In this document: in pieces, positions 4,555-39,433 of the stretch
Position numbering within the stretch: the stretch's first letter is position 1
Layout of the letters: every line of letters begins with the position of its first letter
From: Capsaspora owczarzaki ATCC 30864
Lineage: Eukaryota > Opisthokonta > Filasterea
Direction of reading: 5' to 3'
DNA: 64,000 bases
Assembly (NCBI RefSeq): GCF_000151315.2
Contig: NW_011887293.1
Coordinates: 604,693-668,692 of the forward strand
Made by a program: the position numbers and the translations under genes
The notes under the pieces: model-generated
The model's input: the letters and a program-made list of their open reading frames with translations, nothing else
Database searches by the model: none
Told to the model about the DNA's origin: nothing

Positions 4555-6843
4555 TCACAAACACCGCTGCAAAATGGGAATGACCTGGTCAAACGCTGGA
4601 CGCTTTTCCGGACTTTCTTGCCAGCAGATGGAAATCAGCTGCTGGAAATGTCGTGGCACCGACTCTGGAATGACCGGGCGAAGCTGCTCCAGAGCAACCT
4701 TCATGCCGATTTGCATGGCATTCATGTTGTCGTAGACGAGGCGTCGGGCAAAAATTTCGTACATGACAATGGCGAAGCTGTACATGTCAGCCTTTTTGCG
4801 ATCTGTGCTTTCAGCCTTGAGAACTTGAAATGCGCAAAGTGTAACCAAAAAAATAAAAGCACAAAAGTCAGTGTTGATGCAGGTACCGCGTCTGAGGCGC
4901 ACAGCAACATTCGTGACCGTTACCTTCTGGCGCAATCCAATGCGGCTTGAAAAGTTGCAACCGCTTTTCGAACGTGCGGCGGAATTCAGAGTCTGCGACG
5001 TTCACACGAGCAACGTTCTCCTTGTCAATCTGCATTGACCACAAGCGAGTTGCAGTGAGTGTTGGAGCCAAACCAGCGCGCGCTCTCTCTTGTTCCCACA
5101 CCCCTAAAAGAGAGGGGACATGGGAACCAGTCGAATGCCACGGCACACAGATCAGCAAAACAGGTCAACATACAAAAATAGAATGACTGGTCAGGTCAAA
5201 GTAGGGCATGCCGGGAGGAGTTAGGCCGTGCAGGTAGTTCAGGGCATTCGCAATGCCCAGGGCCCACTGAACCTGGGTCTGCGTATCAATAGACTTGGAA
5301 GTATCGTGCACCTGCTTGTAGAGCGATCCATCGGGCAGGAACTCGGAGACAAGGCCGAGATGGGGCGCAAAGGCCACGTAACCGAGCAGCGGCAAAAGAT
5401 TCTCGTGGTTGAGTCCGCGCAATACCTGAGCCTCGGCAAAGAAATCGTTAAGTTGCAGCTTGGTGACGTTCTGATCGTGGAAGGTTTTGAGGACAAGCTC
5501 GTGCTTGGTGTTCCACCTGACACGAGCAACCTCGCCGAGATGGCCTTGGCCGAGCGAGCTGGGCTGCTCCAACAGGCGCCAGTCAAACTCGAACTTGGCG
5601 GGACCGAGTGCCGACAAGACCTGCTTGCTCGTCGATACGACCACCTTGGTGACCTTGAATGGAATCGGGTCGAGGGTTTGCCCCGCGGACATGGCGAGCG
5701 ATTTCATCGCGTCTCCCAGCTGCTTTCCAGCTCGTGTGAGTGGCGTCTCGCCGTACTTGTTGCTCTGTGCGACAAGAGCTCCGCGCTCCACGAGCAACTG
5801 CGTGACAAAAAAACAAACACCGAGGCAAAAATCAGCGGACAGCGCAGGATAAGGCGAAAAAACAAAAACCCAGTAATTTCGCTCAGTTCACTCACCACCG
5901 CAAGGTCGTTGAAGCGCCAAAATGTCGCATAATGCAACGGTGTGTTTCCATGCTTGTTGGGCACGTTGACATTTGGCTGGCACGCCAGCAGCTGCCCGAT
6001 CAAAGACAAAGGACGAAAAGCAAGCCAAAAAAAAAAAATGTTCAGCAACGACTCGTACGACTCTCCTCTCCTTCTCCAGCCCTCCGTCTTCCCAGTCCCT
6101 GATCTCATGGCCTGTACCATCTGAACCACATCGAGGTGGCCTTCGGCAATGGCGTAGTGAAGCGGAGTGTCGCCAATCTCGTTGACCGCATTCACGTTCG
6201 CCTTCTTGGCAATCAGCGCGGCCACAGTGGCGACTCGATGCTTGCGCACTGCCCAGTGCAGCAGCGTAAAGTTATGCACGTCTCTGTTTGTCGTGATACA
6301 AGTTCAACAAGCAAAGTGAGCAAAACAAAAAAGCCAGTCAAAGGGAAGATTTAATCTAAAAAAAAAAAAAAAAAAAAGCATAACAGATTCTGTTGTACTG
6401 CGTTTTTGGCTGAGAGTGGAAGAGAGATGGAGAGAGACAGAGCGAAAAAGCCCTTGTTTGAAGCAAGTGTGTGCGTTTCAATAAGAGAGGAGAATGAGGA
6501 AGTTGTCGCTGCACTGCCCTGATCAAAAAAAGCAAAAAAAAAAAAAAAAAAAGTTGCCATTTCTCGCTTTTTTTTTTGTTTTTTTTTTTTTTTTTTGTAT
6601 TGTGCTTCTCGTTGTCGCTTTGCTTCCGTTCGAGTGACAGCATTTTCGTTTGTGAGGATGTGTAGGATTGGACAGCGACAAATCAACCCCCCCCCCTCCA
6701 CCCAAACGAGAGAGCAAGAGAGAGAGACGGGAGCGACAGGCTTACAGAATGTCGACATTGCCATTCGAGTACGATTCAATCCATTTGAGGACTTTGGCTT
6801 CCTCGCCATTGATGATTTCGTCGTGCGGCTCGATGGTTGCCAT
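4555..6843 (-). CDS. ILK: Integrin-linked kinase (ILK), pseudokinase with ankyrin repeats
   Basis: ILK is the scaffold of the ILK-PINCH-parvin complex at integrin adhesions. Six exons join in phase: 6843-6746, 6283-6118, 5991-5896, 5797-5174, 5029-4924 and 4823-4555. They encode 452 residues, the same length as human ILK as I recall it. Residues about 33-160 form ankyrin repeats (GDTPLHYAIAEGHLDVV, HGNTPLHYATFWRF, NKYGETPL). The kinase-like domain follows. It has an intact glycine loop GQGHLG (203-208) and the ATP-site lysine in ELVLK (K224). YFDLTSHS stands in place of HRDLKPEN, with an Asp (D321) where human ILK has Ala. DSE (D341) replaces DFG. The C-terminal lobe (KKADMYSF, IGMKVALEQLRPVIP) is strikingly ILK-like and would bind parvin. 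It lies head-to-head with FAM32A. A UTR intron just upstream of the ATG is possible. Confidence 0.93.
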
Positions 6844-7112: not shown

Positions 7113-7760
7113 ATGGCCGATATCGATGACTTTGAGGTTCCACGAGGTGCGCTCCGCATCAAGGGCGGAGCAATTGGCGGCGTCAAGAAGTAAGCAATCA
7201 AAGAAAGCTGAGACCATCCGAATGCAGAGTGGCTCGCGCTATGCCATGCGATACGAAACTTAGCGAGCTGCGAGTATCTCACGTCGCACGCTCGCCCCTG
7301 TCCCCGCGGCCTCCCGCTTCCTTTTTCTCCCCCACTGACAGAGCCAAGAGCAAGAAGCCAGCCCCATCCGAAAGCACAAACACACAAGCGCAAGGCGTAG
7401 TCAGCTCCGTGCTCGCCGAACTGGCAGAGGGCAGCACGCCCGACGACGCTGCTTCGTCCACCCAAGCTGCACCAAAGGCCGACTTGCGAACGCCTGCTCA
7501 AAAGAAGGCTGATGCTTTGCGAGAGCGAAGGGTAAGGCGTCTGTTGCTCCAGTGCAGAGCGAGTGTGTGTGTGTCTGACTGACCCTCGTTCTCCAATGGT
7601 TTCGCTTCTTCTGCTCAACCCCTGCCTGCTGCTCCAGGAAGCCGAGCGCATTCTTAAACAAGCCTCGGTCAGTCACAAGGATCGCATTGCTGAATTCAAC
7701 AAAAAGCTGGACGAGCAATCCGAGCATTACGATGTGCCCAAAATCAGTTGGACAAAGTAG
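7113..7760 (+). CDS. FAM32A: FAM32A-like spliceosomal factor
   Basis: FAM32A is a small basic nuclear protein that stabilises docked exons in the human catalytic-step-2 (C*) and P-complex spliceosome. Three exons (7113-7189, 7342-7531, 7638-7760) encode 129 residues, slightly longer than the 112-residue human protein. The C-terminus is diagnostic: RILKQASVSHKDRIAEF, then HYDVPKISWTK at the very end, the part that reaches the spliceosome active site. The N-terminus has the family's short hydrophobic/basic start (PRGALRIKGG) and a Lys-rich linker. All junctions are GT-AG and in phase. It starts 269 bp from the ILK ATG on the opposite strand. Confidence 0.9.
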
Positions 7761-27419: not shown

Positions 27420-29553
27420 TTAGAAAATCTTGGACACCTTCTTGTCCTTCTTGGGAGTGTTCTTGGCGGCCTCAAACTCCTTGCGCTCGTTCTCGAGCTG
27501 CTGCTTCTTCTCGTCGAGGTCCTTCTTTTGCTTTTCAAGTCGGCGAACCTCGTCCTCGTGTTTTTGTTGCATCTGCAGAGGATAAAGACAAAAGGAGGAG
27601 GGGTTGTTGGTGAGTGGCTTGAACGGGCAATCACAACTGCCAAAAAAAGCACAATGGCCCAAAAATGTACTGCCCCCAGCATCCAAAAAAACATTGTTTT
27701 CGTTTTTTTGTTTTTGAAACGAAAACAAACAATAAACAACTCACCTCGCGCTCGGAGAGCTTGAGCTTTTGCTCCTTCTCGGCAACCTTCATCTGGAAAA
27801 CTTGACGCATGTCGTCCTCCATCTTGGCCATCTTCTGCTCGTGCTCGCGCTTCTCTTCCTCGAACTTGGCAAGGGTCTTGTCGCCGCCGGGGAGGCTGCC
27901 GCCCATGCCGGTCAGCTTGAAGGCACGGTAGCTCTCGTAGAGAACGTCGTTCGTGTTGTCCTTCAGGTCTTGCATGTGCGTTCGGATGAGGAGGTTTCGC
28001 AGCTTGGTAAAGTCGCAGTGGTCCTCGTTCTCAACCTCAACAATGCCCCACGGGTACATGCGGCCGCGGACCTTCTTGCCGCCAATTTCGAGGACAGTGT
28101 TGGAGCCGACGACGGCGAACGGAACGGACGCCTGGAGCGATTGGGCCTCTCGGATGGCATCCTCCTCGTCGTCCGAGTCGGTGGCAAACTGGTAGATGCT
28201 AATGTCGTTCTCGGCAATCTGGGAGAGGATTTGGCGACGGAAGGACTTGATTTCGTCGGCAGTGAGGGTGTCGGCCTTGCCAATGACGGGGATGATGTTG
28301 ACCTTCTTGTGGAGACGCTTCATGAACTCAATGTCCAGGGGCTTGAGGCCGTGGCCGTTGGGAGCAATAAAGTAGAGGCAGCAGTGGACGCGGTTGTCGT
28401 TGGTCTTGGTGCGGTTGACGCGGAGCTCGTCGTTGAGGAACTCCTCAAAGCGCTCGTCAATGAAGGTGACAATGGAGGCCCACGAGTCCTGGTTGTTGAC
28501 AGCATCGCCGAAGCCGGGAGTGTCGACGATGGTGAGGCGCAGGCGGACTCCCTTCTCCTCAATCTCGACCGAGGTCGACGAGACCTTGACCGTCTTTTCG
28601 ATGCGCTCAGCCGCGCTAGGGTACTCGCGCTCGTTGTACAGGTCGGTAAGGAAGAGAGAGTTGACAAGGGTGGACTTGCCGAGGCCAGACTCGCCTGTGA
28701 ATGACAACAAAAAAAATAAGTGTCGAGCAGAAACAAAAAAAAAAAAAAAAAAAACATCCAAATCAAAAAACAGGACGGTTAAACACGTACCGACAACCAT
28801 CAGGGTGAACTCGAAGCCCTTCTTGACGGACTTTCGGTGGACTTGGTTGGGCAGGTTGGCAAAGCCGACATAGCCGCCGAGCTGCTTGGAGCTATCGCTC
28901 TACAGTGACAAGGGAAAAAGAAACGGAAAAAATTCGAAAAATAAAAACGGTGAGCGATTGATACAACCAAGATTGAGCACGACGCGAGATGTGGTTGGCT
29001 CGCAGAGTTGGAATCCGTTGTGCTGCATGCTGCTGGATGAATGTGGGATGAATGAGTCCCCCTTCCCCGGATGGGGTTGTGGATGGAAGCGCGGGGCGGG
29101 TCTCCAATCACAGTCCAAAGCCAAAAAGCACCAAAAAAAAAAAGTCAAAAAAAAAAAGAGAGAGATCGCGAGTTTTTGGATGGCCACCGCGAGAGCAGCG
29201 CGGAGGGATCACACTCGCCGAGCTTGTATGTCATGAAGAATGAATAGAAGTGGCCGCGAGCTTGGAGCGCGGGGATCGCCTCGAGTGCAAGTCAAACGAA
29301 TGAGGGAAAAAAAAAAACAGACAAAAAGAAAAAAAAAAAAAGCAGCGAAAAGCAAACAAAAAAATTTGAAGACAATATTTTTAAAAGCAATTGTTTGGAC
29401 AAAGACGTTCGACTTGTCGATGTTGCCCGACAGCGACAGGGATGGTGATGATGATGGCGATGATGGGAACGGAAAGCAACTGCGAATGAGGTGCTTGAGA
29501 CCATGTGGGTGACTTACATCAGCTGCAGGGAACGACAGGATTCAAGCCAAACG

Positions 29554-36959: not shown

Positions 36960-39433
36960 ATGCGTGTTGCGTACCTTGCGTCGCTCGCACTCGTTGCGCT
37001 CACTCTTGCGCTCGTCAACGCTGATGAGACCAAGCAGCGCGAATACGGCACCGTCATCGGCATCGATCTCGGCACCACTTACAGCTGGTAAGTTTTTTTT
37101 TTTTTTTTTTTTTTTGTGGGAAGCGTGCTTTTTTTTTTTTCTTTTCTATTTTCTCGTTCACTGTTCGGCGAGTGACGTGGCGCGACGGCGAGGCGTTCAG
37201 AGCTCGTGCATTTGCAGCCAACAACAAGAGTTCATTGCGTTCTCCATGCTTGGCGACCTTGCATTTGCCGAGCACATACATTTTCCCGCAGAAGCGCAAA
37301 GAAGAGGTGTCTCGCGATCTCTTTTTTTTTTTTTTTTTTTTTTTTCTGTTTCTGCCGTGTCCGTCGTCGTGCCACCTCATCCGATGCAACTGTTCCGTCC
37401 CCTGCGCGTTTCTATTGCCTTCCTTCCACTTGCTTCTTGCTTCTCGTCACGCGAGTCCCGGCACTCTGCTTTGCTTTTGCTTTTGCTTTTGCTGTACTTT
37501 GTTCCACAGTTCTTCTCGAAGTTTCGACTCACTTTGTTTTTCCATTTTCTATTTCCGTTTTCCTTCACTTTCTCTTCACCTTCTCCTTCACAGCGTCGGC
37601 GTGTTCAAGAACGGCCGCGTTGAAATCATCCCCAACGACCAAGGCAACCGCATCACCCCCTCGTATGTCGCATTCACTGACGACGGCGAGCGCCTCATTG
37701 GCGACGCCGCCAAGAACCAACTGACGGCCAACCCCTTCAACACCATTTTCGACGCCAAGCGCCTCATCGGCCGCGAGTTTAACGAAAAGTCCATCCAGGC
37801 CGACATCAAGCTCTGGCCCTTCAAGGTTGTCAACAAGAACGCCAAGCCCTACATCAAGGTGGCCACCAGCGCCGGCGACAAGGTTCTCTCGCCCGAGGAG
37901 GTGTCTGCCATGATTTTGCTCAAGATGAAGGAGACGGCTGAGGCCTACCTCGGCCACAAGGTCACCCACGCCGTCGTCACTGTGCCCGCCTACTTTAACG
38001 ACGCCCAGCGTCAGGCCACCAAGGACGCCGGCACGATCGCTGGTCTCACCGTCCTCCGCATCATCAACGAGCCCACGGCCGCTGCCATCGCATACGGTCT
38101 CGACAAGAACGACGGCGAGAAGAACATTCTCGTGTTTGATCTCGGTGGTGGCACGTTCGACGTTTCGCTCCTGACCATCGACAACGGCGTCTTTGAGGTC
38201 GTTGCGACCAACGGTGACACTCACCTTGGTGGCCAGGACTTTGACCAACGCATCATGCAACACTTTATGCGCCAGTACAAGGAGAAGAAGGGCAAGGACA
38301 TTTCCAGCGACGTTCGCGCCGTCCAAAAGCTTCGTCGTGAGGCCGAGAAGGCCAAGCGCGCCCTCTCCTCGCAGCACTCTGCCCGCCTCGAAATCGAGGC
38401 CTTCTTTGACGGCGAGGACTTTTCCGAGACGCTCACCCGCGCCAAGTTTGAGGAGCTGAACGCCGACCTCTTCCGCTCGACCCTTGCCCCCGTCAAGAAG
38501 GTCTTGGAAGACTCTGGCCTCCGCAAGGAGGAGATTGACGAAATTGTCCTGGTCGGTGGCTCCACTCGCATCCCCAAGGTCCAGCAGCTCGTCAAGGACT
38601 TTTTCAACGGCAAGGAGCCCAACCGCGGCATCAACCCCGACGAAGCCGTCGCGTATGGCGCCGCCGTCCAGGCTGGCGTTCTCGGTGGCGAGGAATCCAC
38701 TGGCGACCTTGTTCTTCTCGACGTCAACCCCCTGACCCTCGGTATTGAGACTGTTGGCGGCGTCATGACCAAGCTCATCCCCCGCAACTCTGTCATCCCC
38801 ACCAAGAAGTCCCAAATCTTCTCCACCGCCGCCGACAACCAGCCCACCGTCACCATCCAGGTCTTTGAGGGCGAGCGCTCCCTCACCAAGGACTGCCACA
38901 CCCTCGGCAAGTTCGATCTGACTGGCATTCCCCCAGCAGCCCGCGGCGTTCCCCAAATCGAGGTCACCTTTGAGATTGACGCCAACGGCATTCTCCGCGT
39001 CTCGGCCGAGGACAAGGGCACTGGCAAGTCTGAGAAGATCACCATCACCAACGACCAAAACCGTCTGACCCCCGAGGAGATTGAGCGCATGGTCAACGAC
39101 GCCGAGCGCTTTGCCGACCAGGACAAGAAGGTCAAGGAGCGTGTTGACGCCAAGAACGAGCTCGAGAGCTACGCCTACAACCTGCGCAACCAAATCAAGG
39201 ACGAGGACAAGCTCGGCGGCAAGCTCGACGAGGAGGACAAGGAGACCATCACCACCGCCGTCGACGAGACGATCGCCTGGCTCGACCAGTCCGGCGCCGA
39301 GGCCACCACCGAGGAGCTCAAGGAAAAGAAGGCTGCCTTTGAGAAGATTGTCCAGCCCATCGTTTCCAAGCTCTACCAGGGCGGTGCCGGTGGCGCTCCC
39401 TCTGGCGACGACGAGGGTCACGACGAGTTCTAA
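36960..39433 (+). CDS. HSPA5: ER HSP70 chaperone BiP/GRP78
   Basis: BiP is the ER-lumen HSP70 that folds secretory proteins and gates the translocon and the unfolded protein response. Exon 1 (36960-37087) encodes a signal peptide ([20 protein letters not shown]) and the start of the ATPase domain, [14 protein letters not shown], split by a 506-bp intron. Exon 2 (37594-39433) completes 655 residues. HSP70 signatures are intact: [48 protein letters not shown] and the linker [16 protein letters not shown]. The C-terminus is HDEF rather than KDEL/HDEL, still a plausible KDEL-receptor ligand. The opposite strand has a long open frame, a well-known artefact of HSP70 codon bias. Confidence 0.97.

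Follow-up and report, generated by a model that had tools for sequence, protein, structure and literature searches.

The window analysed here, 64,000 nucleotides of contig NW_011887293.1 from Capsaspora owczarzaki ATCC 30864, carries a minus-strand gene at 4555-6843 that was modelled with six exons and five introns, all GT..AG. Its coding sequence of 1359 nt comprises 452 codons plus a stop codon, with a GC content by codon position of 0.61/0.36/0.68. The gene is called ILK below, and its exons are as follows.

6746..6843, minus strand: exon 1, residues 1-32 and part of 33, start codon 6843-6841 (gene model with GT donor, human ILK alignment)
6118..6283, minus strand: exon 2, up to residue 88, ankyrin repeats (gene model and Pfam Ank/Ank_2/Ank_4)
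5896..5991, minus strand: exon 3, residues 89-120, ankyrin repeats (gene model and alignment)
5174..5797, minus strand: exon 4, residues 121-328, ankyrin end, linker, kinase N-lobe and catalytic loop (gene model and alignments)
4924..5029, minus strand: exon 5, residues 329-363 and part of 364, including DSE (gene model and alignment)
4555..4823, minus strand: exon 6, C-lobe and stop codon (gene model and alignment)

The end of exon 4 is supported by the global protein alignment to human ILK, which runs without a gap across the exon 4/5 junction (SIF before and IDKENVARVNVAD after the junction, opposite SVMIDEDMTARISMAD in human ILK), and a wrong exon 4 end was therefore rejected. Intron 1 (6284-6745, 462 bases) contains long runs of A, T and C, and the other four introns are far shorter (98-144 bases). 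A small gene at 7113-7760 (+) is divergent from ILK, and the two ATG codons lie ~270 bases apart. When its exons were joined by eye it matched Pfam FAM32A at 31.2 bits (cut-off 22), and the two genes may have a promoter region in common. Elsewhere in the window, a reading frame that runs uninterrupted for 6713 codons (41303-61444, +) stands out against the intron-rich ILK gene; its first half matches the AAA domains of midasin/MDN1, and a Pfam search at E 0.001 gave no match for the second half. Two further long frames matched HSP70 (37028-39433, +; 845.7 bits) and septin (27631-28899, -; 399.6 bits).

Pfam placed ankyrin repeats (best stretches within residues 18-110) N-terminal to one TKL-type kinase domain (PK_Tyr_Ser-Thr, 199-446), the arrangement expected of an ILK orthologue and present in human ILK (PDB 3KMU/3KMW, 3F6Q). 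The human ILK reference sequence used throughout agrees with chain 3KMU bar three construct differences and was matched to 3F6Q by score. In a phmmer search of solved structures, the kinase domain matched human ILK best, at 183 bits, followed among non-ILK proteins by CTR1 at 129 bits; the intact TKL kinases CTR1, ZAK/MLT, TNNI3K and B-Raf, compared as PDB matches only, have the kinase fold in common with it. The ankyrin region matched human ILK as a single segment (13-170, 128 bits), and repeat-rich ankyrin proteins outscored human ILK there in summed score. Global alignment of the two ILKs gave 38.5% identity over 441 aligned columns (ankyrin 41.8%, N-lobe 29.8%, C-lobe 41.8%). The identical length of 452 residues, which the initial annotation had counted as evidence, is a coincidence, since 11 residues of each protein lie outside those columns, and it was discarded.

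A maximum-likelihood tree with 15 further Capsaspora kinases grouped Capsaspora ILK and human ILK as a clade of their own, with support of 99/97; human ILK was the sole animal ILK in this tree, several of the 15 paralogues were long-branched and five fell into a separate group. Among known kinases, the Capsaspora protein was closest to animal ILK as a clade, with human ILK representing animals. A search of the Capsaspora genome with the ILK kinase domain returned two pieces of the gene itself first (314.8 and 187.2 bits) and a third at 64.0 bits, with non-ILK kinases at 87.4 bits and below. No second ILK was found among the 85 matches listed (145 of 161 candidates scored). The reverse, exon-wise search with human ILK was topped by another kinase encoded in one exon (93.7 bits), which outranked the ILK pieces (82.0 and 57.1 bits) because introns split the ILK gene. 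It is very improbable that the protein is another TKL-group ankyrin kinase merely resembling ILK: ankyrin repeats occur in other TKL kinases too and ankyrin matches are numerous in the genome (150 scored), but the clade with human ILK, the lead of human ILK over the next structure, identity spanning ankyrin, linker and kinase, and a Ser that both ILKs have at the metal-binding Asn site (see below) all speak against it. Collectively, these comparisons support the assignment of the gene as an ILK orthologue. Scans for further ILKs elsewhere confirmed none, with 4 stretches matching the pattern in a protein scan of viral contigs, 18 matching in an alignment scan of viral contigs, and 29 matching the pattern in a protein scan of bacterial and archaeal genome contigs.

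The active-site residues of Capsaspora ILK were located by alignment to human ILK.

5534..5551, minus strand: glycine loop GQGHLG, residues 203-208, opposite human NENHSG 200-205 (gene model and alignment)
5486..5488, minus strand: K224, the beta3 ATP-site Lys, opposite human K220 (alignment)
5432..5434, minus strand: E242, the alphaC Glu, opposite human E238 (alignment)
5195..5197, minus strand: D321, codon GAC, in YFDL (319-322) at the HRD Asp position, opposite human A319 (two alignments)
5180..5182, minus strand: S326 at the position of the PKA metal-binding Asn171, opposite human S324 (alignment; human role from PMC3014569, in excerpt)
4985..4993, minus strand: DSE, residues 341-343, opposite human DVK 339-341 (alignment)

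D321 lies opposite human A319 both in phmmer and in the global alignment, anchored by the flanking P..L.S.S. A chance alignment was rejected, since the two aligners concur and the flanks are conserved. The global alignment also placed G203 and G205 opposite human N200 and N202, V210 opposite L207, D341 opposite D339 and E363 opposite E359. In human ILK the glycine loop is not canonical and the HRD Asp is missing; Capsaspora ILK has both in their canonical form. Each of the two proteins keeps its beta3 Lys, its alphaC Glu and the Asp of DFG. Both have lost the catalytic-loop Lys (T323, human N321), the metal-binding Asn, and the Phe and Gly of DFG (S342/E343, human V340/K341); the roles of these positions in ILK and PKA are taken from the available parts of PMC3014569 and PMC4718504. 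Human residues identical in Capsaspora ILK include K220, E238, G205, D339, E359, H203, R211, H99, M402/K403 and S324.

With T323, S326 and the DFG Phe/Gly losses sitting beside canonical residues, the site has a mosaic character. PMC9403797 (in excerpt) lists the VAIK Lys, HRD Asp and DFG Asp as the catalytic residues, and all three are there (K224, D321, D341); four further residues of a canonical kinase are replaced (T323, S326, S342, E343). Neither is the site of the human ILK type, as its HRD Asp is present and the human ATP contacts Asn200/Asn202/Lys341 are G203, G205 and E343. Across 11 positions, human ILK is without six and Capsaspora ILK without three. This list was drawn up here, in PKA numbering, as G50, G52, G55, K72, E91, D166, K168, N171, D184 and G186 together with the APE Glu; a review that used its own list also found human ILK without six of eleven (PMC3014569, in excerpt). 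The Pfam Pkinase profile scored 113.8 bits for Capsaspora ILK, 84.2 for human ILK, whose match begins only at profile position 21, and 165.1 for an intact Capsaspora kinase. With PK_Tyr_Ser-Thr the gap between the ILKs was small (138.3 and 133.6 bits; 195.7 for the intact kinase). The initial annotation had proposed that this protein retains more canonical kinase residues than animal ILK. This holds in the comparison with human ILK, and the annotated glycine loop, K224 and D321 in YFDL were all borne out. Its DSE in place of DFG was also correct but told part of the story, as the losses at T323 and S326 went unnamed, and so did the minus strand of the gene.

The 15 other kinases of the genome were used to judge which states are older. 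Twenty loci were fetched out of the 85 matches listed, 17 of these were non-ILK, and two (L029 and L033, <230 residues) were dropped. Counted from alignment columns, these paralogues have the kinase fold in common with Capsaspora ILK and mostly its HRD Asp (13/15); they differ from it in the metal-binding Asn (15/15), and in most of them the catalytic Lys (12/15) and an intact DFG (13/15) are present. Because all four states are prevalent in this set, we take them to be the older ones. Two of the paralogues, L021 and L027 on other contigs, have HRN and HLN for HRD with DFG intact and are candidate pseudokinases. Animal ILKs are described as lacking the HRD Asp (PMC9403797, in excerpt), confirmed here for human ILK only. 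Most simply, then, the Asp and the glycines would have been retained in Capsaspora ILK and lost towards animals. The loss of the metal-binding Asn would, again most simply, be older and shared, since both ILKs have the same Ser there (S326/S324). The remaining shared losses could be independent, since the residues differ (T323/N321, S342/V340, E343/K341). This order is parsimony on two aligned ILKs, human and Capsaspora, and one published sentence (PMC9403797, in excerpt), and it is on these that the earlier suggestion of a less degenerate stage stands as a plausible reading.

Counting against this order, the HRD Asp is absent in 2/15 and the catalytic Lys in 3/15 of the other kinases. D321 could also be a functionless regain, or drift in an already dead kinase, and not ancestral: the catalytic residues near it are gone, and its codon GAC is one base from the Ala codon GCC. 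Yet Capsaspora ILK is also canonical at the two glycines that human ILK has lost, so that three separate regains would be needed, and most of the outgroup kinases (13/15) have the Asp. We therefore regard a regain as unlikely and prefer retention.

How such a site would handle nucleotide was considered next to what is published for human ILK, which contacts ATP in an unusual mode through the side chains of N200, N202 and K341 (PMC4718504, in excerpt). Because all three are replaced in Capsaspora ILK, ATP binding, if any, should differ in mode from that of human ILK, in keeping with the initial annotation. The change from K341 to E343 reverses the charge, and this Glu in the Lys position could repel the ATP phosphates. 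The same annotation had raised ATP hydrolysis or kinase activity, for which the case is weak, since the catalytic-loop Lys, the metal-binding Asn and the DFG Phe/Gly are lost and parvin occupies the active site of human ILK (PMC3014569, in excerpt). Phosphotransfer by Capsaspora ILK is unlikely on these residues, and the protein is probably no longer a working kinase.

One could instead suppose a weak but real kinase, perhaps Mn-dependent, that phosphorylates while also scaffolding and for which one metal ligand is enough. K224, E242, D321, D341 and the GxGxxG loop are all there for it, and plant proteins offer a precedent. Plant ILK1-6, Raf-like MAP3K ankyrin kinases, resemble Capsaspora ILK by description in the ILK name and in a mosaic loss of catalytic motifs, and ILK1, whose DFG is replaced by GFG, is active and prefers Mn (PMC9403797, PMC5376563, both in excerpt). 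Even human ILK is reported by one group to have an Mn-dependent activity (PMC2932980, in excerpt). The plant pseudokinase ILKs, again by description in the available text, have lost the DFG Asp because GFG replaces DFG, whereas Capsaspora ILK keeps it. Against a weak kinase are the replacements T323 (catalytic Lys), S326 (metal Asn), S342 (DFG Phe) and E343 (DFG Gly), the metal Asn kept in every one of the 15 other kinases, and the parvin that sits over the human ILK site. We judge this reading quite unlikely. We give equally little credence to its evolutionary form, in which Capsaspora ILK would be a living intermediate, a catalytically competent and perhaps Mn-dependent kinase already within the PINCH-parvin scaffold. 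If that were true, the scaffold role preceded the loss of activity, which faded only towards animals.

The residues through which a scaffold would act lie in the two best conserved stretches of the protein.

4704-4699, minus strand: M404/K405, opposite human M402/K403, in the best conserved 17-residue stretch (alignment)
5952-5950, minus strand: codon of H102 in exon 3, opposite human H99 (alignment)

The best conserved 17 columns form the parvin-side stretch MQIGMKVALEQLRPVIP (human 398-414), with 14/17 identical; it contains M402/K403, which we take to be parvin-binding residues. A shuffle test of the kinase columns only reached 14/17 in 190 of 10000 rounds. In the ankyrin part, the best stretch has 12/17 identical and holds H102, whose human counterpart H99 is presumably PINCH-binding. 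In the Capsaspora genome assembly (27.46 Mb, 29 contigs) we found a PINCH gene, one parvin match, and six matches to integrin-beta, which lie at four places (C2, C3, C6, C8). Capsaspora PINCH keeps F42, R56, D62 and L66 and has Glu at both Q40 and H61, and Capsaspora parvin keeps F271; exon pieces of both were joined crudely, and we assume all seven to be ILK-contact positions. On this incomplete residue list, the contacts with PINCH LIM1 and parvin CH2 are conserved in ILK (H102, M404, K405) and in its partners, save PINCH Q40/H61. The PINCH tail keeps its actin motif in part: F307 is replaced by Ile, L311 by Ser and K312 by Arg, and K313 is retained (human residues from PMC6203859, in excerpt). 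Human V386/T387, a published paxillin site (PMC7949147), are F388/A389 in Capsaspora ILK in the global alignment. The human ILK-PINCH-parvin complex bundles actin in cells, and MgATP on ILK tunes the bundling (PMC6203859, in excerpt). Expression of the ILK-PINCH-parvin genes rises when Capsaspora is in its aggregative stage (PMC3870316, in excerpt). Together, the conserved contact residues and the presence of both partner genes in the same genome support a scaffold role older than animals, as the initial annotation had suggested.

The explanation that we consider likely is an ILK-PINCH-parvin scaffold whose mosaic site decayed stepwise, with nucleotide as a structural cofactor and little or no phosphotransfer. 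Capsaspora ILK would be the central scaffold of the complex, its ankyrin repeats holding PINCH LIM1 and the C-lobe of its kinase fold holding the parvin CH2 domain, and the complex would link integrin tails to actin. Nucleotide is probably still bound, through the glycine loop instead of the Asn/Asn/Lys side chains used in human ILK, and would serve the structure with little or no phosphotransfer. The first losses, of the metal Asn, the catalytic Lys and DFG, may have preceded the split of filastereans and animals, and those of the glycine loop and the catalytic Asp would have followed on the line to animals. The gene, its homology, its residues and the partner genes enter this explanation as observations; partner binding, nucleotide use, lack of catalysis and the order of losses are what it proposes.

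The adhesion machinery of Capsaspora was reportedly described in 2010. Its ILK gene is already known, and the ILK-PINCH-parvin gene set has been published (PMC3870316, in excerpt). Among the papers listed, none describes the mosaic active site of Capsaspora ILK, though unlisted or subscription papers could do so. Because the Lys/Asp/Asp triad is kept, residue counting would class the protein as a kinase, and sorting kinases from pseudokinases by the triad alone would label it active, which calls for caution. A non-animal ILK that has the catalytic Asp, the glycine loop and the triad together with conserved scaffold surfaces is a concrete protein that can be expressed, and it makes testable the question of whether scaffold use came before the loss of catalysis. 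Its less decayed active site may help to date the turn of ILK from enzyme to scaffold.
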